Shown here: one piece after another, positions 11,077-43,920 of the stretch | Numbering within the stretch: the stretch's first letter is position 1 | Layout: every line of letters begins with the position of its first letter | Origin: Okeania sp. KiyG1 | GTDB taxonomy: Bacteria; Cyanobacteriota; Cyanobacteriia; Cyanobacteriales; Microcoleaceae | DNA length: 46,232 bases | Direction: 5' to 3' | Assembly: GCF_014132355.1 (NCBI RefSeq) | Contig: NZ_BLZO01000128.1 | Location: 1-46,232, forward strand | Program-made: the position numbers and the translations under genes | Notes under the pieces: generated by a model | Told to the model about the DNA's origin: nothing | Databases searched by the model: none | Seen by the model: the letters and a program-made list of their open reading frames with translations, nothing else

Positions 11077-11214
11077 CAGGACTTACGCAAAATATTAAAT
11101 TCTACACCATCTGTAGGGGCGCCATTCGGAGCTTTGCGCCAGCAAACGGCCGAAAGCTTGCGCATAACTATCGTTAACGCCCCTACTAGGTATAGTGGTT
11201 GTGCGTAAGTCCCG
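11077..11214. repeat. MITE-like element, CAGGACTTACGCA family (copy 1)
   Basis: The ends CAGGACTTACGCA and TGCGTAAGTCCCG are inverted repeats of ~13 bp. The interior carries CACCATCTGTAGGGGCG. A related copy in the other orientation lies at 43808-43920. Confidence 0.75.
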
Positions 11215-17179: not shown

Positions 17180-18582
17180 TTCTTCAGCCAGAGAAAAACT
17201 GACCGCAGTTTTAACAGAAGTGATGTCCTCCTCCTGTGTTGAAAACAATCCTATTTTTTGTATTAGGAGTGCTGAGTTATAGTCTCTGTCTAATTCCTGT
17301 CCACATTTAGCACAGGAATGCCAGCGTTCTGATAAACTTTTAGAGACTTTATTCAGACATTTCCAACAATGTTGGGATGTACCTTTGGGTCTACTTTGAT
17401 AATTTTTTTGCCTAGTTTCCAGGCTACATACTCCAAAACCTGAACAAACTGCCCAAAAGCTGCATCTTGCAAAGATTTATTTAATCCTGACTTAGCTGAT
17501 TGACCATTGGGCAAAAACTGACCATTATCACCCAATTTAGCTTTGCAACGTCTGATTAAATTTGCTATTTGCAGGTCTTCTAAAAATATCACCTGACAGT
17601 CACTAAATAAATGATAAGCCAGTTTGAATTGCCAATCCAAACGTTGTCTAGCTATTAATTGATGCAGTCTAGATATTTTACCTTTGAGAATTTTCCAACT
17701 CTTTGAATGTTTGTGTTTTTTAGCTAATCTCGCCTGAAGTTTAGACAAGCGATGCTCAGAACACCTGAAAAACTTCGGGACTTCTATAAATTCACCATCA
17801 CTGGTAACAGCATAGTACAATAATCCTAAATCAATACCTTTTGAGTTATCTTCGGTGGGTTGAATTTCTGCACGCCTCAAAGGTACAGCTTGATCTTCTA
17901 TCGTTAAGCTGATATACCATCCATCTGCCGCCCGTATCACTGTACCTGTTTTCACCTTGAATCCTATTGGTATTGAACGATTGTAGACAAAGGGGACTAA
18001 ACCAATCTTTGGTAGATTTATACAAAAACGACCGTTGGCATTTTTGACTATGTTGGCATTTGATAGCTGAGGATAACTGAAAGAATTATAATAATGCCGA
18101 CCTTTAAATTTAGGTCTACCACTGGTTTTACCCTTGTGATCAGGTTTGGTAAAGTTATCCATTGTTGTTTGCACACGCTGGATAACATCTTGCAACACCT
18201 GAGAGTGCATCAACTTATACTCAGGGAAAAGTTTTTTAGTCCGTGCTAAATCTGCTAGTTGAACAGTCTCCCAAACAACATATCCATTAACTGTGTTCGG
18301 ATGCTTATCTCCTTTCCTTGTTATCGGATTACCAAAAATGTCCTTTTTTCTACCATCTCGTGTTTGTACCCTAAATTCAGGGATATTCTGATAAATCTGG
18401 TCTACTGGCACCACTGAAACATTAAGAGGACAAGCATTTACTGGTGTGCGTGTTGCTTCAAACCAGTTTAGCCTTTCAGCTAAACGGTAATTATATTGCT
18501 TTCTGGCCATTTCTAACCAATTGGCTATAATTACCGTTTGACTTTTATGGGGTTTTAGCTTGTACTTGTATTTCAGTAACAT
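17162..18582 (-). pseudogene. tnpB: IS200/IS605-family TnpB (RNA-guided nuclease), apparent frameshift near the C-terminus
   Basis: From the ATG at 18582 (MLLKYKYKLKPHKSQ) the protein shows the TnpB N-terminal domain, RuvC-I GIDLGLLYYAVTSDG and RuvC-II IFLEDLQIANLIRR. The frame ends early at 17353. One extra base at ~17382 (run of three A to four on the coding strand) would continue it as GTSQHCWKCLNKVSKSLSE, then the zinc-finger CAKCG and RuvC-III DRDYNSA, stopping at 17162. All catalytic residues and zinc ligands are thus present but split between two frames. An upstream non-ATG extension to 18642 is unlikely. No tnpA is present, so it is a stand-alone tnpB. Either a recent decay or a sequence error. 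Confidence 0.85.
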
Positions 18583-18854
18583 GGCAGAATCTACCAGGAT
18601 TTCTATATTAGTTATTATAATGGCTATGTTAGAAATTTTCAATAGCTATAGCAAACAGGATCTTATGAAAACCACACACCCTGGCCCGGCTCTCATCCCG
18701 ACGCTCCCCTACGGGAGAGCGCGGGACTTCCCGCCGGGGAAGTTAAATCCTAAATTTTCATAAAGCTTATGGGGCGAGTCCCCATCTCCCCACACTCCCT
18801 ACACTCCCCACACTCCCTACACTCCCCATCTCCCCATCTCCCCATCTCCCCATC
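18583..18854. other. Intergenic: palindrome and CT-rich microsatellite
   Basis: Contains the second 31-bp palindrome (18696-18726) and a long CT-rich run of ACTCCC and ATCTCCCC units (18780-18855). No gene is seen. Confidence 0.6.
18696..18726. repeat. 31-bp palindromic repeat, copy upstream of tnpB
   Basis: Identical to 17149-17179 and in the same orientation, so tnpB lies between direct copies of one hairpin-forming sequence. Confidence 0.75.
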
Positions 18855-24200: not shown

Positions 24201-26539
24201 TCAATGGTAAAGTTAATGGGGCAACAGTTGTAGCAGACGATCGCTTTGGTAACTGTATCAACTTTGATGGGGTTGATGATTATATCGAACTTCCTACAGC
24301 AACTATTCCCGAAACTGGTGAAATTACAATTAGTTTCTGGGCAAATGGTGGCAAGTCTTTACCTAAACAAAATTCTATTATCTTGGCACAAGATAAAAGT
24401 AATCACAGGGTAGTCAACATTCATTTACCTTGGTCAGATAGTAAAATTTACTTTGATTGTGGAAATACCACTACTTCTGATAATAGTTATGACCGTATCG
24501 AAGAACTATCTCAAGCAACTGACTTCAAGGATAAATGGACTTCCTGGGTATTTACAAAGAATGTTGCTACCGCAGAGATGAAAATCTATCTCAATGGTGT
24601 TCTTTGGCAAAGTGGTGTTGGTAAAGAAAATCCTCTAAGCTCAATTACTCTGGTTAAATTTGGTTGTGGTTATGGGTTTTATAATGGTAAGGTTGCTCAT
24701 CTACGAATTTATGACCGAGTATTGTCACCTGAAGAAATTAACGAATTGATGACAGTTGATGAGGCTGATGAAACTGACACTACATCAACAACTGGTGAGA
24801 CTGAGACCACTGATGCTACTGACAGCACATCCACAACGGATGAGACTGAGACTACTGATGCTACTGACACTACATCAACAACTGGTGAGACTGAGACTAC
24901 TGATGCTACTGACAGCACATCCACAACGGATGAGACTGAAACTACTGATGCTACTGACAGCACATCCACAACGGATGAGACTGAGACTACTGACAGCACA
25001 TCCACAACAGATGAGACTGAGACTACTGACAGCACATCCACAACAGATGAGACTGAGACTACTGACAGCACATCCACAACAGATGAGACTGAGACTACTG
25101 ACAGCACATCCACAACAGATGAGACTGAGACTACTGACAGCACATCCACAACAGATGAAACTGAGACTACTGACAGCACATCCACAACAGATGAAACTGA
25201 GACTACTGACAGCACATCCACAACGGATGAGACTGAGACTACTGATGCTACTGACAGCACATCCACAACGGATGAGACTGAGACTACTGATGCTACTGAC
25301 AGCACATCCACAACGGATGAGACTGAGACTACTGACAGCACATCAACAACGGATGAGACTGAGACCACTGAGACTACTGACAGCACATCCACAACAGATG
25401 AGACCACTGATGCTACCGACACCACATCAACAACGGATGAGACTGAGACTACTGGTGAAACCGACAGCACATCAACCACTGATGAGCCTGATGCCACTGG
25501 TGAAACCGACACCACATCAACAACGGATGAGACTCCTCAACCTATAGATATAAATAGTGGTTTACACCTCCATCTCCCACTGAATGAAATAGTAGAAAAC
25601 TCAGCAAAAGAAAAAGAAGTAGTTGATGGCTCAAACGGAAAACTCAATGGTAAAGTTTATGGCGCTAAAGTCATAGCTGACCCTAACTTTGGTGACTGTA
25701 TAGGTTTTGATGGAGTAGATGATTATATAGAACTACCCCCAACAGCTATTCCCGAAACTAATGAAATCACAATTAGTTTTTGGGCAAACGGTGGAGAGTC
25801 TCTACCCAAAAAAAGCTCTATCTTGTTAGCACAAGATAAAACTAATCACAGGGTAGTTAATATTCTCTTACCATGGTCAGACAGTACCGTATACTTTGAT
25901 TGTGGAAATAAAACCACTTCTTTTGACAGAATTGAACAATTAGCTCAAGTCTCTGATTTTAAGGGTAAATGGAATCACTGGGCATTTACAAAAAATGTTG
26001 CTACCGGCGAGATGAAAATCTATCTCAATGGTAGTCTGTGGCAAACTGTTACAGGTAAAGATCAAGAATTAAGTCAAATTACTCGAATAAAATTGGGTTG
26101 TGGTTATGGGTTCTATGAGGGTAAAGTTGCCGATCTGCGAATCTATGACCGAGTATTATCTCAAGAGGAAATTAACGAACTAATGAAAGTCAATCAACCT
26201 GCTACTACATCAACAACTGGTGAAACAGACACCACACCTACGACTGACGAAACTGATACTACCCAAAAACCTATGGAATATCGGATTTATCAGGTCAAAG
26301 GTAATCCCACAATCAATACTGGATATCAAGAATCAGAATGGACTGCAGTTATTGCCGGATTTAATTCCGGAGCAAAGCAGAAACACAAAGCCTCAGCATT
26401 GACGATCATGCCTGTTGTTGAGGATGGAGAATGGACAATCAAGTGCGATCTAAAAGATACAGAGGACCGCTATTGGGATGTGGCCGTTTTATTTATCAGG
26501 AATAATATGGTAAATAGGGTCAACAACTTTTATCGTTAG
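21290..26539 (+). CDS. Large multi-LamG protein with Thr/Ser/Asp/Glu repeat region
   Basis: 1749 residues from an ATG with AAGGAG seven bases upstream. Residues 1-~250 are a beta-rich domain I do not recognise. Five LamG/concanavalin-like modules follow at ~268-483, 492-707, 714-930, 935-1150 and 1417-1633, each starting with GLQLHLPLNEIVENAAKEKE and carrying INFDGVDDYI and HLRIYDRVLSPEEIN. Modules 2 and 4 are almost identical in DNA, pointing to a recent duplication; module 3 is of a different subtype (LTVEAWVHYSS). Residues ~1155-1415 are a TDSTSTTDETET repeat. The last ~90 residues form another unrecognised domain. LamG folds commonly bind glycans and mediate adhesion, so a surface role is likely, yet no Sec signal, TM segment or anchor is visible. 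Secretion through a C-terminal signal is possible but unproven. Confidence 0.8.
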   Translation: MSEVATKNLTFWDTTDYKYPGFGQTAQISDGLGGTIGITYNKIDYDDRAWKGKPDGGTPITKDRLLSGEIENKFSLTGKVKGITATMPQIRTIGRENNYSVTLDFSNYKASLTGSKATDGATCGDTYLAISRFFNGSKAGYTTIKVTATTLDGSPVNLADWKLFNSGTLGKGHNARIFLDAATQTISGKNSQGKQEFCPTPPNPGNSFGTDTGLGLFELPSDQRYTSITLTFKQKKIKGVIPNDLHDIYVASNTTSTSPISETPETKPMDINNGLQLHLPLNEIVENAAKEKEVLDISGNKLNGKVHGGEIVADSRFGKCINFDGVDDYIDLPKETIPQTGAITISFWAYGGKSLPKNTVLISAYNKGNQPLVRVYLPWSDRRIIFDYGNPFDRIEKVGEAVDFKDKWVYWTFTKNVAKGEMNIYLNGSLWHSGTGKDKAIDLDSVVKVMFGRETYNSYYNGQIAHLRIYDRVLSPEDINECMKVDGTPPPMDINSGLQLHLPLNEIVENAAKEKEVVDVSAAKLNGKVNGATVVADDRFGNCINFDGVDDYIELPTAAIPETGEITISFWANGGKSLPKQNSIILAQDKSNHRVVNIHLPWSDSKIYFDCGNTTTSDNSYDRIEELSQATDFKDKWTCWVFTKNVATAEMKIYLNGVLWQSGVGKENPLSSITLVKFGCGYGFYNGKVAHLRIYDRVLSPEEINECMKVDGTPPPMDINRGLQLHLPLNEIVENAAKEKEVVDVSAAKLNGKVNGATVVADSKLGNCLNFDGVDDYIQMPEINIDYSQGLTVEAWVHYSSFKSWSRIIDFGNGQGNDNILFANEGTTKNLVLDVYKGTTQNRIKADGMLELNQWLYLTVTVDGSGSSKIYKNGEEVQSGLVHLPNNLNRTKNYIGDSNWSADGFFHGKMSHLRMYNRALSKAEINECMKVDGTPPPMDINRGLQLHLPLNEIVENAAKEKEVVDVSAAKLNGKVNGATVVADDRFGNCINFDGVDDYIELPTATIPETGEITISFWANGGKSLPKQNSIILAQDKSNHRVVNIHLPWSDSKIYFDCGNTTTSDNSYDRIEELSQATDFKDKWTSWVFTKNVATAEMKIYLNGVLWQSGVGKENPLSSITLVKFGCGYGFYNGKVAHLRIYDRVLSPEEINELMTVDEADETDTTSTTGETETTDATDSTSTTDETETTDATDTTSTTGETETTDATDSTSTTDETETTDATDSTSTTDETETTDSTSTTDETETTDSTSTTDETETTDSTSTTDETETTDSTSTTDETETTDSTSTTDETETTDSTSTTDETETTDSTSTTDETETTDATDSTSTTDETETTDATDSTSTTDETETTDSTSTTDETETTETTDSTSTTDETTDATDTTSTTDETETTGETDSTSTTDEPDATGETDTTSTTDETPQPIDINSGLHLHLPLNEIVENSAKEKEVVDGSNGKLNGKVYGAKVIADPNFGDCIGFDGVDDYIELPPTAIPETNEITISFWANGGESLPKKSSILLAQDKTNHRVVNILLPWSDSTVYFDCGNKTTSFDRIEQLAQVSDFKGKWNHWAFTKNVATGEMKIYLNGSLWQTVTGKDQELSQITRIKLGCGYGFYEGKVADLRIYDRVLSQEEINELMKVNQPATTSTTGETDTTPTTDETDTTQKPMEYRIYQVKGNPTINTGYQESEWTAVIAGFNSGAKQKHKASALTIMPVVEDGEWTIKCDLKDTEDRYWDVAVLFIRNNMVNRVNNFYR
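24769..25530 (+). repeat. Coding tandem repeat, 36-bp unit (TDSTSTTDETET) with 45-bp variants
   Basis: About 20 units inside the LamG gene. The DNA is repetitive in all frames, which produces long false ORFs on both strands. Central units (~24980-25200) are nearly identical, so copy number may vary between isolates without a frameshift. Confidence 0.85.
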
Positions 26540-26814: not shown

Positions 26815-28020
26815 ATGCGACTTGTTGACAGACATATTATTAACCGAACACATCAGTATTGGCGGGTGTGTGATGAATTAGCCTTTAAGTCAAAAAACTT
26901 GTATAATTTGGCTAATTATTACTGTCGTCAACATTTTTTCTGTACTGGTCATAGTCTGGATTTAACTAAACTGTACCACGCCACCAAAGATAGCGATGCC
27001 TATAGATCGCTACCAACTAAAGTATCAAAACAAATAATAAAATGCTTGGTTGCCACTTGGCGTGGTTATTTTCAAGCTATAAAAGAATGGTCAAAACATC
27101 CAGGGAAGTTTTTAGGTAAACCCAAAATACCAAAGTATAAGAATAAAACTCAAGGTAGGAATGTAGTTATATATTCAAAAGAATCAGTCTACAGAGCAAG
27201 TCTAAAAGATGGTATTTGTCACTTATCCATGAGTGAAATCAAAATACCTGTAGTTGTGGATACTGTCATCGAAGTGAGGATAGTACCTGCTACTAACTGC
27301 TATATAATTGAAGTAGTGTATGAAAAAACACTTCAGCCACAAATACACTCAACATATGTAGCCGGAATTGACTTAGGAATTGGCAGATTAGTAGCTCTAT
27401 CTACAAATAAGCCTGGTGTCAAACCACTGCTGATTAATGGGAAGCCACTAAAAAGCGTCAATCAATTATATAACAAGCGTAAAGCCAAGTACCAAAGTCA
27501 TCTCAAAGGCAACAGAAAAACTAGCCGTAAGATTAAGGCGTTAACCTATCACCGAAATCGTTTTGTCGAGAATTATTTGCATAACACCAGTTTCTTAGTG
27601 GTTGAGTATTTAACCACTAATAATATTGGTACTGTAGTCATTGGAAAAAATGATAATTGGAAACAAGGTGCAAATATGGGCAAAAAAAACAACCAAAATT
27701 TTACTCAAATACCTCACTATAAGCTAATTCAACAGATAACTTATAAATGCCTACTTGCTGGGGTAAAAGTCATTGAAACCGAAGAAAGTTACACCAGTAA
27801 AACATCTGCTATTGACTTAGAAAAACCTTGTAAGCATGAAAACTATGTAGGCAAGCGAGTCAAACGTGGTTTATTCAGAAGTGCAACTGGTCAAGTGATT
27901 AATGCCGATATCAATGGCAGTCTTCAAATAATAAGAAAGAAATTCCCAGAGGCATTTACTGCCGAGGGAATAGTGAGCTGCGCCGTACAGCCAGTATTGG
28001 TTAATCCAATATCAAGATAA
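26815..28020 (+). CDS. tnpB: TnpB-like IS605 OrfB-family protein with altered RuvC layout
   Basis: 401 residues; RuvC-I GIDLGIGRLVALS and RuvC-III NADINGSLQIIRK are clear. In the usual RuvC-II position the sequence is TVVIGKNDNWKQ, without the expected Glu-Asp pair; a Glu-rich ETEESYTSKTSAID follows ~60 residues later. The CxxC...CxxC zinc finger is absent. This fits a TnpB branch in which the catalytic Glu is thought to have moved, rather than a broken copy, because the rest of the frame is intact. Start ATG at 26815 with AGGTG just upstream. No tnpA is nearby. TnpB proteins are RNA-guided nucleases that help retain IS200/IS605 elements; activity of this variant is uncertain. Confidence 0.85.
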   Translation: MRLVDRHIINRTHQYWRVCDELAFKSKNLYNLANYYCRQHFFCTGHSLDLTKLYHATKDSDAYRSLPTKVSKQIIKCLVATWRGYFQAIKEWSKHPGKFLGKPKIPKYKNKTQGRNVVIYSKESVYRASLKDGICHLSMSEIKIPVVVDTVIEVRIVPATNCYIIEVVYEKTLQPQIHSTYVAGIDLGIGRLVALSTNKPGVKPLLINGKPLKSVNQLYNKRKAKYQSHLKGNRKTSRKIKALTYHRNRFVENYLHNTSFLVVEYLTTNNIGTVVIGKNDNWKQGANMGKKNNQNFTQIPHYKLIQQITYKCLLAGVKVIETEESYTSKTSAIDLEKPCKHENYVGKRVKRGLFRSATGQVINADINGSLQIIRKKFPEAFTAEGIVSCAVQPVLVNPISR

Positions 28021-35279: not shown

Positions 35280-35783
35280 TCACTTCAACTTAATTTCAAT
35301 CTGCACTTCACTCCGTTTCAAATCTTCCGGTGTCATTGGCGAATTATACAACAACCGTCTTGGCGGACTTACAACTTCATACTCTGGGTGTTGCGCCAAC
35401 CATTCTTTCAGCTTTTGCAAATTTTGTTCGTAGCTCTCCCAACTATAAGCACCCTGTATTCCAATACTCACAACCTTCATCGGCAAAGTATCTCTCACCA
35501 TCACCTGAGAATCAATTTTCTGGGGAGTCATATCCGGGGTCGAATAGAGAAAAGATACTTCTGTTTGTTCGCCTTCTTTGACATAACGTGCTTCCACAGG
35601 GGTTGTCATGGCAATTTGATTACTGCTGATATGTTGATACAGTGGATCGAAAGCAGCTCTGGTTGCCATCCGGGAATCACCTGTATGGGTGTAGGTGACA
35701 GCGCGATATTGGGGATACTCTTTAACTTCAATGATATTTGCCTCAGTAGGTTGAGGAAAACCTTGGGGTAAAGATGCAGACAT
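35280..35783 (-). CDS. SOUL-family haem-binding-like protein
   Basis: 167 residues covering the whole SOUL/HBP fold. Key text: EVKEYPQYRAVTYTHTGD, NQIAMTTPVEARY (the IAMTxPV motif typical of the family), VSFLYSTPDMTP and LPMKVVSIGIQGAYSWESY. Family members bind haem or tetrapyrroles in some eukaryotes; the bacterial function is unknown. No signal peptide. Its upstream region directly abuts the 49-unit array at 35841, so any promoter must lie in the ~60 bp between, or use the first array unit. Confidence 0.9.
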   Translation of the reverse strand: MSASLPQGFPQPTEANIIEVKEYPQYRAVTYTHTGDSRMATRAAFDPLYQHISSNQIAMTTPVEARYVKEGEQTEVSFLYSTPDMTPQKIDSQVMVRDTLPMKVVSIGIQGAYSWESYEQNLQKLKEWLAQHPEYEVVSPPRRLLYNSPMTPEDLKRSEVQIEIKLK

Positions 35784-35813: not shown

Positions 35814-35843
35814 TATATATACTTGTTATAGAATAGATATCAA
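35814..35843 (-). promoter_or_regulatory. Possible -10/-35 promoter of the SOUL gene at the array border
   Basis: On the minus strand TTGATA (35843-35838) and TATATA (35819-35814) are 18 bp apart, ~30 bp before the ATG at 35783. The -35-like hexamer straddles the first bases of the tandem array. Prediction by eye only. Confidence 0.3.
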
Positions 35844-38800
35844 CTGCTGTAACTATTGTCCAATAGATAAATCAAAATCAATCAAAGGAAAAATCAGCGC
35901 TGGCGAAAACTGTTGTAACTATTGTCCAATAGATAAATAAACATCAATATCGCAAAAATCAGCGTTCGCGAGAACTGTTGTAACTATTGTCCAATAGTTA
36001 AATAAACATCAATATCGCAAAAATCAGCGTTCGCGAGAACTGTTGTAACTATTGTCCAATAGTTAAATAAACATCAATATCGCAAAAATCACTGCTCGCG
36101 AAAACTGTTGTAACTATTGTCCAATAGATAAATCAAAATCAACCAAAGGAAAAGAGAGCGCTCGCGAAAACTGCCGTAACTATTGTCCAATAGTTAAATA
36201 AACATCAATATCGCAAAAATCAGCGCTCGCGAAAACTGCCGTAACTATTGTCCAATAGTTAAATAAACATCAATCTTGGAAAAATTAGCGTTCGCGAGAA
36301 CTGTTGTAACTATTGTTCAATAGATAAATCAAAATCAACCAAAGGAAAAGAGAGCACTCGCGAAAACTGTTGTAACTATTGTCCAATAGATAAATCAAAA
36401 TCAACCAAAGGAAAAGAGAGCGCTCGCGAAAATTGTTGTAACTATTGTCCAATAGATAAATAAACATCAATCAAAGGAAAAATTAGCACTCGCGAAAACT
36501 GTTGTAACTATTGTCCAATAGATAAATCAAAATCAACCAAAGGAAAAGAGAGCGATCGCGAAAACTGCCGTAACTATTGTCCAATAGTTAAATAAACATC
36601 AATATCGCAAAAATCAGCGTTCGCGAAAATTGTTGTAACTATTGTCCAATAGTTAAATAAACATCAATCAAAGGAAAAATTAGCGTTCGCGAGAACTGTT
36701 GTAACTATTGTTCAATAGATAAATCAAAATCAACCAAAGGAAAAGAGAGCACTCGCGAAAACTGTTGTAACTATTGTCCAATAGATAAATCAAAATCAAC
36801 CAAAGGAAAAGAGAGCGCTCGCGAAAATTGTTGTAACTATTGTCCAATAGATAAATAAACATCAATCAAAGGAAAAATTAGCACTCGCGAAAACTGTTGT
36901 AACTATTGTCCAATAGTTAAATAAACATCAATCAAAGGAAAAGAGAGCGATCGCGAAAATTGTTGTAACTATTGTCCAATAGTTAAATAAACATCAATCA
37001 AAGGAAAAATCAGCGTTCGCGAGAACTGTTGTAACTATTGTTCAATAGATAAATCAACATTAACCTGGGAAAAATTAGCGATCGTGAGAACTGTTGTAAC
37101 TATTGTCCAATAGATAAATCAAAATCAACCAAAGGAAAAATTAGCGCTCGCGAGAACTGTTGTAACTATTGTCCAATAGTTAAATCAAAATCAACCAAAG
37201 GAAAAATTAGCGCTCGCGAGAACTGTTGTAACTATTGTCCAATAGTTAAATCAAAATCAACCAAAGGAAAAATTAGCACTCGCGAAAACTGTTGTAACTA
37301 TTGTCCAATAGATAAATCAAAATCAACCAAAGGAAAAATTAGCACTCGCGAAAACTGTTGTAACTATTGTCCAATAGATAAATCAAAATCAACCAAAGGA
37401 AAAATTAGCACTCGCGAAAACTGTTGTAACTATTGTCCAATAGATAAATCAAAATCAACCAAAGGAAAAGAGAGCGCTCGCGAAAACTGTTGTAACTATT
37501 GTCCAATAGATAAATCAAAATCAACCAAAGGAAAAGAGAGCGCTCGCGAAAACTGCCGTAACTATTGTCCAATAGTTAAATAAACATCAACCAAAGGAAA
37601 AATCAGCGTTCGCGAGAACTGCTGTAACTATTGTCCAATAGTTAAATAAACATCAATATCGCAAAAATCAGCGTTCGCGAGAACTGCTGTAACTATTGTC
37701 CAATAGTTAAATCAAAATCAATATCGCAAAAATCAGCGTTCGCGAGAACTGTTGTAACTATTGTCCAATAGTTAAATAAACATCAATCTTGGAAAAATTA
37801 GCGTTCGTGAGAACTGTTGTAACTATTGTCCAATAGATAAATAAACATCAACCAAAGGAAAAATCAGCGTTCGCGAGAACTGCTGTAACTATTGTCCAAT
37901 AGATAAATCAAAATCAACCAAAGGAAAAGAGAGCGCTCGCGAAAACTGCCGTAACTATTGTCCAATAGTTAAATAAACATCAACCAAAGGAAAAATCAGC
38001 GCTGGCGAAAATTGTTGTAACTATTATCCAATAGTTAAATAAACATCAATCAAAGGAAAAATTAGCGTTCGCGAGAACTGTTGTAACTATTGTTCAATAG
38101 ATAAATCAAAATCAACTAAAGGAAAAATTAGCACTCGCGAAAACTGTTGTAACTATTGTCCAATAGATAAATCAAAATCAACCAAAGGAAAAGAGAGCGC
38201 TCGCGAAAATTGTTGTAACTATTGTCCAATAGATAAATAAACATCAATCAAAGGAAAAATTAGCACTCGCGAAAACTGTTGTAACTATTGTCCAATAGAT
38301 AAATAAACATCAACCAAAGGAAAAGAGAGCGGTCGCGAAAATTGTTGTAACTATTGTCCAATAGATAAATAAACATCAACCAAAGGAAAAGAGAGCGGTC
38401 GCGAAAATTGTTGTAACTATTGTCCAATAGATAAATAAACATCAATCAAAGGAAAAATTAGCACTCGCGAAAACTGTTGTAACTATTGTCCAATAGATAA
38501 ATCAAAATCAACCAAAGGAAAAGAGAGCGCTCGCGAAAACTGCCGTAACTATTGTCCAATAGTTAAATAAACATCAATATCGCAAAAATCAGCGTTCGCG
38601 AAAACTGCCGTAACTATTGTCCAATAGTTAAATAAACATCAATATCGCAAAAATCAGCGTTCGCGGGAACTGTTGTAACTATTGTCCAATAGTTAAATAA
38701 ACATCAATATCGCAAAAATCAGCGATCGCGAGAACTGCTGTAACTATTGTCCAATAGTTAAATAAACATCAATATCGCAAAAATCAGCGATCGCGAGAAC

Positions 38801-39045
38801 TGCTGTAACTATTGTCCAATAGTTAAATAAACATCAATCTTGGAAAAATTAGCGTTCGTGAGAACTGTTGTAACTATTGTCCAATAGTTAAATAAACATC
38901 AATCTTGGAAAAATTAGCGTTCGTGAGAACTGTTGTAACTATTGTCCAATAGTTAAATAAACATCAATCTTGGAAAAATTAGCGAGCGCGAGAACTACTG
39001 TAACTATTGTCCAATAGATAAATCAAAATCAATCAAAGGAAAACT
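35841..39045. repeat. Tandem array of 49 units, 65 or 66 bp each, with a dyad in each unit
   Basis: The motif GTAACTATTGTCCAATAG begins at 35849 and recurs 49 times to 39000. Of 48 intervals, 31 are 66 bp and 17 are 65 bp. Each unit is: a dyad core (AACTATTG-TC-CAATAG, often extended to TT), an A/T-rich WTAAATMAAMATCAA, a variable module (CCAAAGGAAAAATTAG or ..AAGAGAG, 16 nt; ATCGCAAAAATCAG or CTTGGAAAAATTAG type, 15 nt), then CGNTCGCGA and RAACTGYYG. The length class follows the module. Short 22-residue-repeat ORFs inside are broken wherever a 65-bp unit occurs, so it is not a coding array. Some units contain full HIP1 (GCGATCGC). It lies upstream of the SOUL gene and overlaps the stop codon of the vWA gene. 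Confidence 0.95.
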
Positions 39046-40694
39046 CTAAGCAGTTGACGAATCTCATCTTCCTGTTGGCGAGGCAACTCGTAAATCAGCC
39101 ATGATCGCAGCCAGTCAGGCATATAACCATATCGAAACCAAGGCAGACGAGCTAGATCGGTGAGCCGACAAGCCTGAAGGAGGGATATGCCATCATCAGT
39201 CTGGAGCCTATTGCCCAGGTAAACTGTAAGATTCCAATGTAGTTCGGGAAACACTGCACAAGCACTCAGCCAATAGTAACCAGCTTTCCCTAAATAACGT
39301 CGGAGAGATTCTAGGACATCAGCTACCAACCATGGCTCAGGTGCATCTCGCTCTATCCAGCGTCGCCCTCTCACTCTCAAGGCTTCCGGAAAAGGTGTCC
39401 TGTTTTTCTCTGAAGGCACATCAGGCAATTTTCCATATTCGATGCTGCGTATCAAATCAATCAACCCATCATTTGTAGCGGGTAAAACAATAAACTCTCG
39501 CGATAATTCTAGTTCCTGATATCCCCAGTGTTCGGAAGGTTTGGGAGTCAAGACAGCCCGCTCAGGCCAACTCGAAAATAGATTAAGCCAGGGTTCGGGT
39601 TCGCCAGTGAGGGAACTGAAAAAAACGTCGGTATCGGAGAAGACTATCAGTCGATGCTGACTGTACTTCAAGGCAATTTCCCTTAGCTTAGAAGAAAGTC
39701 TTTTTCCTGTTATAGGAAAGCAAACCCGGGGGTCGCCATCAAAGTAGTAGCCTCTGATTAAGACTTCGTTGTGGGTGAGTTGAGCAATCATTTCCTTGAC
39801 AAATCTTGCCTGGTGGTCGCTGTAATTCGCCCCGTCTATGAGAACGAGGTATTCAGGTAAAACCTGATGGTAGCCGTACACTGGCGCAAACCAACCTCCT
39901 CCCCCCACAGTTTTTTCTACAGTCTTGTCAACATTAAGTTCATTGGATGGAACCAGAATACGTCGCCTCAAACCCTGAGCAATGCGCAAAAACAAAAGGC
40001 TGGGAAATAGTTCCTCATCAAGACCAGAGATAGACACTTGCTGAATTTCGGGCTGTCGCCTGGTCGTACGACGCTTGAGGTATTGGCGTGCTCGTCTAGA
40101 CCACCAGAGTCTTGAAGCTAAAAATGTAACTAGGGGTACAAGCATTAACAATAACATTATCGTCTGCCATTCCTGAAGAAAAACTAGATCGTTATAGTTT
40201 GGGGATGGAACTGGTGTAACTGTTGGCAGTGAAACTGGTTTGTCGCTCTTTGTTGTAAGTGGAAATTGCTGGATTAGGAAATTGGTGATAACAACAGTAA
40301 TAGAAACTGCAATCCCCAATAGTACCCACCGTTGCCATCGCCATTTCTTCTCAATCTTTTTCAACTCCTGTTCAAATTTCTGAGCCTTTTCATCTTCTGG
40401 AATAGCCTCCCTAACAGTAAAACCCATCCGTTCAACCCATTGGTCAAACCGTCGCTGAAAATCCTCTTGTTCTACTGGAGAACTGCATAGCAAGGGACCG
40501 AGAAGGCTTCTCAGCCTCTGGGGTTCCTCTAGCTGCTCTCCTTTTGCACTCAGAGCAATTATGAGTTCTTGAGCAGCAATATATTGCGAAACACCAATGT
40601 TGTAATTGTGTTCTCTGCGCAGCTCATCAATGAACTCAATCAATTTTTCTGGTTGTAGCCACCCTGGGCTTACTTTTGGCGACTGTCTATCCAT
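39033..40694 (-). CDS. Two-TM protein with vWA-like domain, MoxR partner
   Basis: 553 residues. Residues ~10-95 form a helical domain with the pattern FIDELRREHNYNIGVSQYIAA, as in vWA proteins paired with MoxR ATPases. A coiled coil (~100-120) leads to TM1 (~123-144), a short Pro/Ser loop, TM2 (~178-198), and a cytoplasmic vWA-like domain from ~280: YLVLIDGANYSD (degenerate MIDAS, first Asp 287), then LIVFSDTDVFF. The canonical DxSxS is not intact, so metal binding is doubtful. The start overlaps moxR by 25 bp, implying translational coupling. The TGA stop (39033-39035) lies in the last unit of the tandem array. In predicted conflict systems such proteins work with MoxR to remodel or release an effector. 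Confidence 0.75.
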   Translation of the reverse strand: MDRQSPKVSPGWLQPEKLIEFIDELRREHNYNIGVSQYIAAQELIIALSAKGEQLEEPQRLRSLLGPLLCSSPVEQEDFQRRFDQWVERMGFTVREAIPEDEKAQKFEQELKKIEKKWRWQRWVLLGIAVSITVVITNFLIQQFPLTTKSDKPVSLPTVTPVPSPNYNDLVFLQEWQTIMLLLMLVPLVTFLASRLWWSRRARQYLKRRTTRRQPEIQQVSISGLDEELFPSLLFLRIAQGLRRRILVPSNELNVDKTVEKTVGGGGWFAPVYGYHQVLPEYLVLIDGANYSDHQARFVKEMIAQLTHNEVLIRGYYFDGDPRVCFPITGKRLSSKLREIALKYSQHRLIVFSDTDVFFSSLTGEPEPWLNLFSSWPERAVLTPKPSEHWGYQELELSREFIVLPATNDGLIDLIRSIEYGKLPDVPSEKNRTPFPEALRVRGRRWIERDAPEPWLVADVLESLRRYLGKAGYYWLSACAVFPELHWNLTVYLGNRLQTDDGISLLQACRLTDLARLPWFRYGYMPDWLRSWLIYELPRQQEDEIRQLLRVFL

Positions 40695-43807: not shown

Positions 43808-43920
43808 CAGGACTTACACAGACACTCTATATACAGGGAGGGCGTTAGCGGAGCTTGGCGTTAGCCAATGCCATTCGCCCCTACAGATGGTGTATGATTT
43901 TATATTTTGCGTAAGTCCTG
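43808..43920. repeat. MITE-like element, CAGGACTTACGCA family (copy 2)
   Basis: CAGGACTTACACA at the left and TTGCGTAAGTCCTG at the right are inverted ends. The interior is the inverse of 11077-11214, with an added GGGCGTTAGCGGAGCTTGGC palindromic stretch. It separates the CHAT gene from the caspase operon and may carry or block their co-transcription. Confidence 0.7.

Follow-up and report, generated by a model that had tools for sequence, protein, structure and literature searches.

A 49-unit tandem array in Okeania sp. KiyG1 is probably the overgrown interior of a damaged, non-autonomous transposable element

Introduction

Arrays of tens of tandem units are unusual in bacteria. One such array lies in a 46,232-nucleotide contig of the cyanobacterium Okeania sp. 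KiyG1 (NZ_BLZO01000128.1, positions 1 to 46,232; the whole stretch is called the window here), between a gene for a SOUL haem-binding protein and a group of caspase-associated genes. The locus raises the question of how a bacterial sequence comes to be repeated about fifty times, and whether the result serves the genes beside it. A preliminary description, made from the letters of the window, had called the array neither a CRISPR nor coding, had remarked that its place beside the caspase/MoxR operon might be chance or functional, and had proposed a protein-binding platform or decoy, a centromere-like site, a source of structured RNA or a selfish satellite. We followed its repeated core through the genome, through related genomes and through larger sequence collections.

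Results

Structure of the window array

Our recount agreed with the 49 cores reported before. The window array contains GTAACTATTGTCCAATAG 49 times, 44 times exactly and five times with a single change (GTTCAATAG four times, TATTATCC once), and the distance from core to core is 66 bp in 31 intervals and 65 bp in 17. The copies extend from 35849, where the first starts, to 39017, where the last ends, with no additional copy elsewhere in the window at up to two mismatches. Tandem Repeats Finder (TRF) delimited the array at 35842-39043 (period 66, 48.8 copies, 89% matches, score 4248). The full core is a 20-bp palindrome, TAACTATTG-TC-CAATAGTTA, in which a TC centre separates two arms of 9 bp. 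The features of the locus are as follows.

35842..39043, + strand: tandem array of 48.8 units of 65/66 bp, defined by TRF, the core count and the orthologous arrays; read as the interior minisatellite of a B-type element (see below)
35849..39017, + strand: 49 palindromic cores, GTAACTATTGTCCAATAG(A/T)TA, 65 or 66 bp apart, defined by the core count
35842..35848, + strand: left edge of the array, AACTGCT, read as the remainder of the inner border of B left ends (..GAAACTGCTG, then TAAC); compare loci L014 and L020
39018..39043, + strand: last partial unit, apparently joined to the next gene by a deletion of ~950 bp; loci L170 and L171 continue to the B right terminal repeat
35280..35783, - strand: SOUL haem-binding protein gene (Pfam PF04832); the array starts 58 bp before its start codon
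39033..40694, - strand: 553-aa open reading frame (ORF), first gene of an AAA/caspase/CHAT neighbourhood; its 3' end enters the last repeat unit

No ORF of at least 80 aa lies inside the array, and the ORF at 39033-40694 overlaps its last bases only, so the reading as non-coding held; so did the exclusion of a CRISPR, as spacers recur within arrays. The 48 internal units comprise 34 distinct sequences and include duplicated blocks, two or three units long, that lie 6, 21 and 27 units apart. Diversity was 0.014 in the core versus 0.157 in the spacer. A known RNA family was rejected as a candidate because Rfam gave no match in the window at gathering thresholds, and no tRNA genes were found in the window. 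Pfam assigned no family to the 553-aa ORF or to its two orthologues (L170, L171). Elsewhere in the window are two IS605 OrfB/TnpB-type genes (17353-18642 and 26815-28020; PF01385) and, at 24765-25534, a coding tandem repeat of 36/45 bp units in a 1749-aa ORF with Laminin_G_3 domains.

The core within the Okeania sp. KiyG1 genome

In the genome of this strain (G000; 10.98 Mb in 198 contigs) a 17-base core was found at 247 forward and 253 reverse sites with at most one mismatch, compared with 0 forward and 1 reverse sites for the reversed pattern, which excludes chance as the source of the core matches. At up to two mismatches, where a fully symmetric site is counted on both strands, the numbers were 271 and 271. 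Since a symmetric site has two centre mismatches on the opposite strand, the forward and reverse sites found at one mismatch are generally different and total about 500. Across the genome the core recurs in further arrays that have spacers of their own and periods between 58 and ~195 bp, and it is also present inside small transposable elements. The preliminary description had held that a unit scattered at many unrelated loci would favour a plain satellite: the core is indeed scattered, but the spacers differ between elements.

Two families of elements carry the core

The first family, which we term B elements, has ~20-bp terminal inverted repeats (TIRs; GGCTTTGTTGCATGAAAGTA) with core arrays inside. 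We found 45 B ends in G000 at up to one mismatch, nine of which fall in a single locus (L011), where eight are array copies of one end. A core lay within 330 bp inward at 41 of the 45, and in 36 of these 41 it was 66-85 bp away. The closed pairs of ends in our first set from this genome were flanked by a perfect 9-bp target-site duplication (TSD) in eight of eight cases; in an enlarged set of 15 distinct closed pairs the 9-bp TSD was perfect in 11, matched at 8/9 positions in one and at 7/9 in one, and was absent in two. Element-free flanks were found in relatives without a clean junction, and conserved junctions were lacking; for one candidate empty site the insertion was also present in a related genome, G004, with 15 cores versus 14. 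As no clean empty site was recovered, the mobility of B elements rests on the target duplications.

Among 55 arrays with at least four cores, a B end was present on both sides in 11, on one side in 23 and on neither in 21, five of the last lying near the edge of the fetched stretch. Some of the arrays that have no B end may have another origin. Three B loci read for coding content (L141, L144 and L145) contained no transposase gene, only repeat-coded ORFs of up to 315 aa. At L145:3071-7131 two arrays of 72-bp period (15 and 26 cores) appear to be one B element split by ~1.2 kb, and the 72-bp period there keeps long repeat-coded frames open on both strands.

The second family, A elements, consists of fold-back MITEs of ~89 bp with ends AGGACTTACGCA..TGCGTAAGTCCT; most solitary copies of the core form the centre of such an element. 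Within a set of solitary core groups selected by the presence of the core, 64 of 77 passed a two-sided test for A ends; seven of the 13 that failed were the two viral contigs and the five organisms with chance matches described below. A search by ends rather than by core identified 84 A elements in G000. Among the 50 of these 84 that were listed, a hand count gave 17 with the core at the centre (at most two changes) and 33 with another centre, ~27 of the 33 being GGGGCGAATGGCATTCGCCCC-like. The window itself contains two A-type (AGGACTTACGCA) elements, at 11078-11213 and 43809-43919, whose centres are not the core palindrome. These two copies and the mixed centres among the 50 are a sign that the centre of the A family is exchangeable. 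At a further locus (L149:1086-1902) there is a tandem array of 136-bp period with A-like sequence around the core and the TC/GA centre flipped in place; A-type sequence can thus also go tandem.

Taxonomic distribution of the core

The core was found in 11 of 40 genomes searched, namely in that of this strain, in all five others of the genus and in five of 34 outside it. A scan of a larger collection returned at least 102 stretches; among the matches listed, 95 were from Okeania, one from Microcoleaceae and one from Trichodesmium. The other five among the matches listed, from Thiotrichales, Thiotrichaceae, Pelagibacteraceae, Dysgonamonadaceae and Woesearchaeota, were single cores without element ends, which we take as chance. 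Viral contigs yielded two single core matches without element ends and no exact B end, 400 bp of the window array matched no phage, and one 269-bp B element matched no plasmid. The core is present in a Trichodesmium MAG (L117), and in a Microcoleaceae MAG (L030) a core array lies near a B-end-like sequence (12 bases, at most two changes). On these two loci, the element family may reach beyond Okeania.

The SOUL locus in related genomes

We sought the flanks of the window array in six genomes of the genus, that of KiyG1 included. An array adjoins the SOUL gene in five of the six, with 49 cores in this strain, 7 in G001, 8 in G002, 17 in G004 and 15 in G005, and with a period of 65/66 throughout; in G003 the flank query matched only a dispersed repeat that it contained. 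The flank on the side of the 553-aa ORF was found outside this strain only in G001 and G004. In both of these the right B terminal repeat, TACTTTCATGCAACAAAAC, is kept ~80 bp past the last core (with one mismatch in G001 and two in G004), followed by ~0.9 kb up to the matching part of the neighbouring gene that is missing from the window. The orthologues of the 553-aa ORF are longer (906 aa in L171, 772 aa in L170), and the last codons of the 553-aa ORF are repeat sequence of the last unit. The comparison thus indicates that a deletion of ~950 bp removed the right B end of the window copy and shortened the next gene at its C-terminus. The window copy carries no B terminal repeat on either side and no visible target duplication; a left B end is likewise missing from the orthologous copies read.

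In G002 and G005 the sequence directly after the array differs from that of the window, and the operon gene was not found in the part of those loci read; its absence there is likely. As judged from these comparisons, the array is common to these Okeania genomes, tracks the SOUL locus and not the caspase operon, and reaches its greatest length here in KiyG1. A link to the caspase/MoxR operon is not supported, since the array lies beside SOUL in five genomes, of which three yielded the operon gene, counting the parts of G002 and G005 that were read. A second copy of the SOUL gene in G000 (L174, contig C129; 92% DNA identity) has no core in 6 kb.

Turnover of units and conservation of the core

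When the units of the five orthologous arrays were compared, the closest relative lay in the same array for 79 of 90, and no identical units were shared in any of the ten genome pairs. We infer that slippage or unequal exchange turns the units over, as in ordinary concerted evolution. The core, in general, varies less than the sequence between cores. In 37 of 40 array runs the core was less diverse than the spacer (means 0.011 versus 0.084; sign test 2e-8), where the runs are partly dependent (five are orthologous and some come from one locus) and the units were located via cores with at most 3 changes in 14, a procedure that somewhat favours conserved cores.

The asymmetric centre of the palindrome was changed from TC to GA in place, with unchanged flanks, at 21 sites in four arrays. 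A single array (L024) holds 17 of the 21, probably one or two events that were then copied. The same survey gave no whole-unit inversions, nine ambiguous sites and 47 uniform arrays. In L149, the orientation of the centre is the sole difference between two units that are identical over 30 bp on each side. Taken together, the lower diversity of the core and the in-place flips point to a part for the palindrome in array growth. A compensated double mutant of the core, ACTGTTGTCCAACAGT, did not occur in any of the 30 genomes searched, this strain included, which speaks against selection for base pairing; from the one variant tested, covariation of the arms is without support.

A candidate transposase

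The genome of this strain has three matches to PF13737 (DDE_Tnp_1_5), two of them overlapping, all in decayed insertion sequences. The left end of these sequences, GGCTTTGTTGCATGAATG, is identical to the B end at 17 of 18 positions and the right end at 15 of 18; the TSD matches at 8/9 positions in L175 and is absent in L177. No core lies inside them, and their inner sequence beyond the TIR is unlike that of B elements. An intact autonomous partner was not found in our searches. We presume that the IS5 family, IS903 group, which has a 9-bp TSD, is the appropriate assignment. B elements are presumably mobilised in trans by an IS5-type (IS903-like) transposase.

Discussion

The window array is, in our judgement, likely to be a minisatellite that has overgrown inside an old, damaged copy of a non-autonomous B element, a copy that no longer moves. 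Among the roles proposed in the preliminary description the selfish satellite came closest to what was found, while a centromere-like or decoy role is without positive evidence and nothing points to a function that would serve the host or the caspase operon. B elements would have been moved, now or formerly, in trans by the IS5/IS903-type enzyme. Slippage or unequal recombination would add and remove units, aided by the palindrome, whose folding may cause the polymerase to switch strands and would in that way yield in-place TC/GA flips. The core may be kept intact because it is important to the element, as a protein site or as the structure that drives growth.

Of the alternatives, the one that survives best supposes that the palindrome with its asymmetric centre is the dedicated site of a putative cyanobacterial site-specific recombinase or nuclease, an enzyme that would build and remodel the arrays and flip its own site's centre. 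Units of core plus spacer would be excised and re-inserted like cassettes, and the element would be their vehicle. The architecture is suggestive of such a site: the two central bases of the palindrome are non-palindromic and have been flipped in place in four arrays, the core is common to two element families with different ends, and it is fixed while spacers differ and, in some arrays, alternate in length (97, 72, 97, 72.. in L144). However, the type of the left flank is for the most part coupled to that of the right, no recombinase gene could be connected with the core, and the flips are few and also compatible with template switching. Free shuffling of spacers at the core was considered in its own right and found weak, with four of 784 four-combination sets present (the eight commonest types on each side). 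We therefore regard a dedicated enzyme as unlikely, both as an account of the core and as an account of this array; if true, it would amount to an enzyme-driven bacterial satellite-making system common to two element families with different ends.

We think it still less probable that the array is a plain satellite, in which slippage could occur anywhere, the core would be kept by chance or homogenisation and the element ends would be an accidental container. Concerted evolution within arrays and the lack of a B end at 21 of 55 arrays are what such a satellite would produce, but the same 14-20 bp are kept across differing spacers and periods of 58 to ~195 bp, and the cores found inward of 41 of 45 B ends, 36 of them at 66-85 bp, tie the arrays to the element.

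Equally improbable is that the array has a function in the caspase/MoxR operon or in regulating SOUL, acting as platform, decoy, promoter, terminator or structured RNA. It does lie 58 bp before the SOUL start and beside SOUL in four other genomes. Its first 400 bp fold better than shuffled sequence on both strands (z -3.7 and -4.6), although tandem palindromes by themselves give such values. The array region has 10 terminator-like sites versus 2.4 expected, all on the minus strand and all from repeat units, and 0 sigma-70-like promoters versus 12.7 expected; in a tandem repeat one unit decides counts of this kind, so that neither the terminators in favour nor the missing promoters against carry much weight. 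Against a host function, unit number varies sevenfold, the second SOUL copy does without the core, and the operon gene was not found in the read part of the G002 and G005 loci. The caspase-operon link, a false lead, is weakened by these results, with nothing found that ties the array to the operon.

It is very unlikely that the core is a REP-type palindrome mobilised by a Y1 (TnpA-REP/RAYT) transposase. REPs, too, are found repeated in tandem together with segments of adjoining DNA, according to the available parts of two reports (PMC3733652, PMC3116915), and the genome has 24 Y1_Tnp matches; but the core was in none of these 24 Y1 loci (about 1.5 kb on each side), and the palindrome has no GTAG or CGTC tag at its foot. 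Finally, an assembly artefact, for which draft assemblies of many contigs give some occasion, is scarcely credible given 34 distinct sequences among 48 internal units and arrays at the same locus in four other assemblies.

The element family of this genus offers natural replicates of the birth of a satellite, in which the same palindrome is combined with different spacers between known ends. The orthologous loci with 7 to 49 cores would permit a direct test of what makes a bacterial sequence go tandem, and the family as a whole allows one to ask whether the palindrome drives tandem growth. It can likewise be asked why two kinds of element that differ in their ends both retain one 20-bp sequence.

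Our search for literature on these arrays in Okeania or Trichodesmium, confined to listings of open-licence work, showed none. Elhai et al. (2008) reportedly described small dispersed repeats (SDR), very small mobile-looking sequences in cyanobacterial genomes. B elements resemble the IS5 family, IS903 group, in their left TIR, GGCTTTGTTGCATGAA, and their 9-bp TSD; they differ in that the B elements read code no transposase and are unlike the decayed insertion sequences inside. As far as the available parts of the sources go, REP/REPIN clusters are similar in that short palindromes stand in tandem with flanking DNA of variable length (PMC3733652, PMC3116915). Unlike them, the Okeania core lacks a GTAG/CGTC tag and is absent from the 24 Y1 loci, and its palindrome lies inside TIR elements with 9-bp TSDs.

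The nearest published parallel that we found is BrickBuilt of Porphyromonas gingivalis, together with the PgRS/464 elements (PMC4596501, available part). BrickBuilt is described there as a non-autonomous MITE with TIRs, in which 1 to 22.8 copies of a 23-nt minisatellite form a tandem interior between a leader and a tail that are constant; in some copies one end or both are missing, and TSDs of differing length flank three of four complete copies (PMC4596501). The B elements are alike in having a tandem interior of varying copy number between constant ends. On the same partial source, the differences are that BrickBuilt has one 23-nt unit whereas the Okeania arrays have periods of 58 to ~195 bp around a common palindromic core of 14-20 bp, that unit number reaches 49 in Okeania versus 22.8 in BrickBuilt (PMC4596501), and that B elements have a perfect 9-bp TSD in 11 of 15 closed copies versus TSDs of differing length in three of four. 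The Okeania core, unlike that of BrickBuilt as described in that part, also occurs in a second element family. The Okeania system is set apart by its size, by a palindrome that stays fixed while the spacers change, and by the occurrence of that palindrome in two families whose ends differ.
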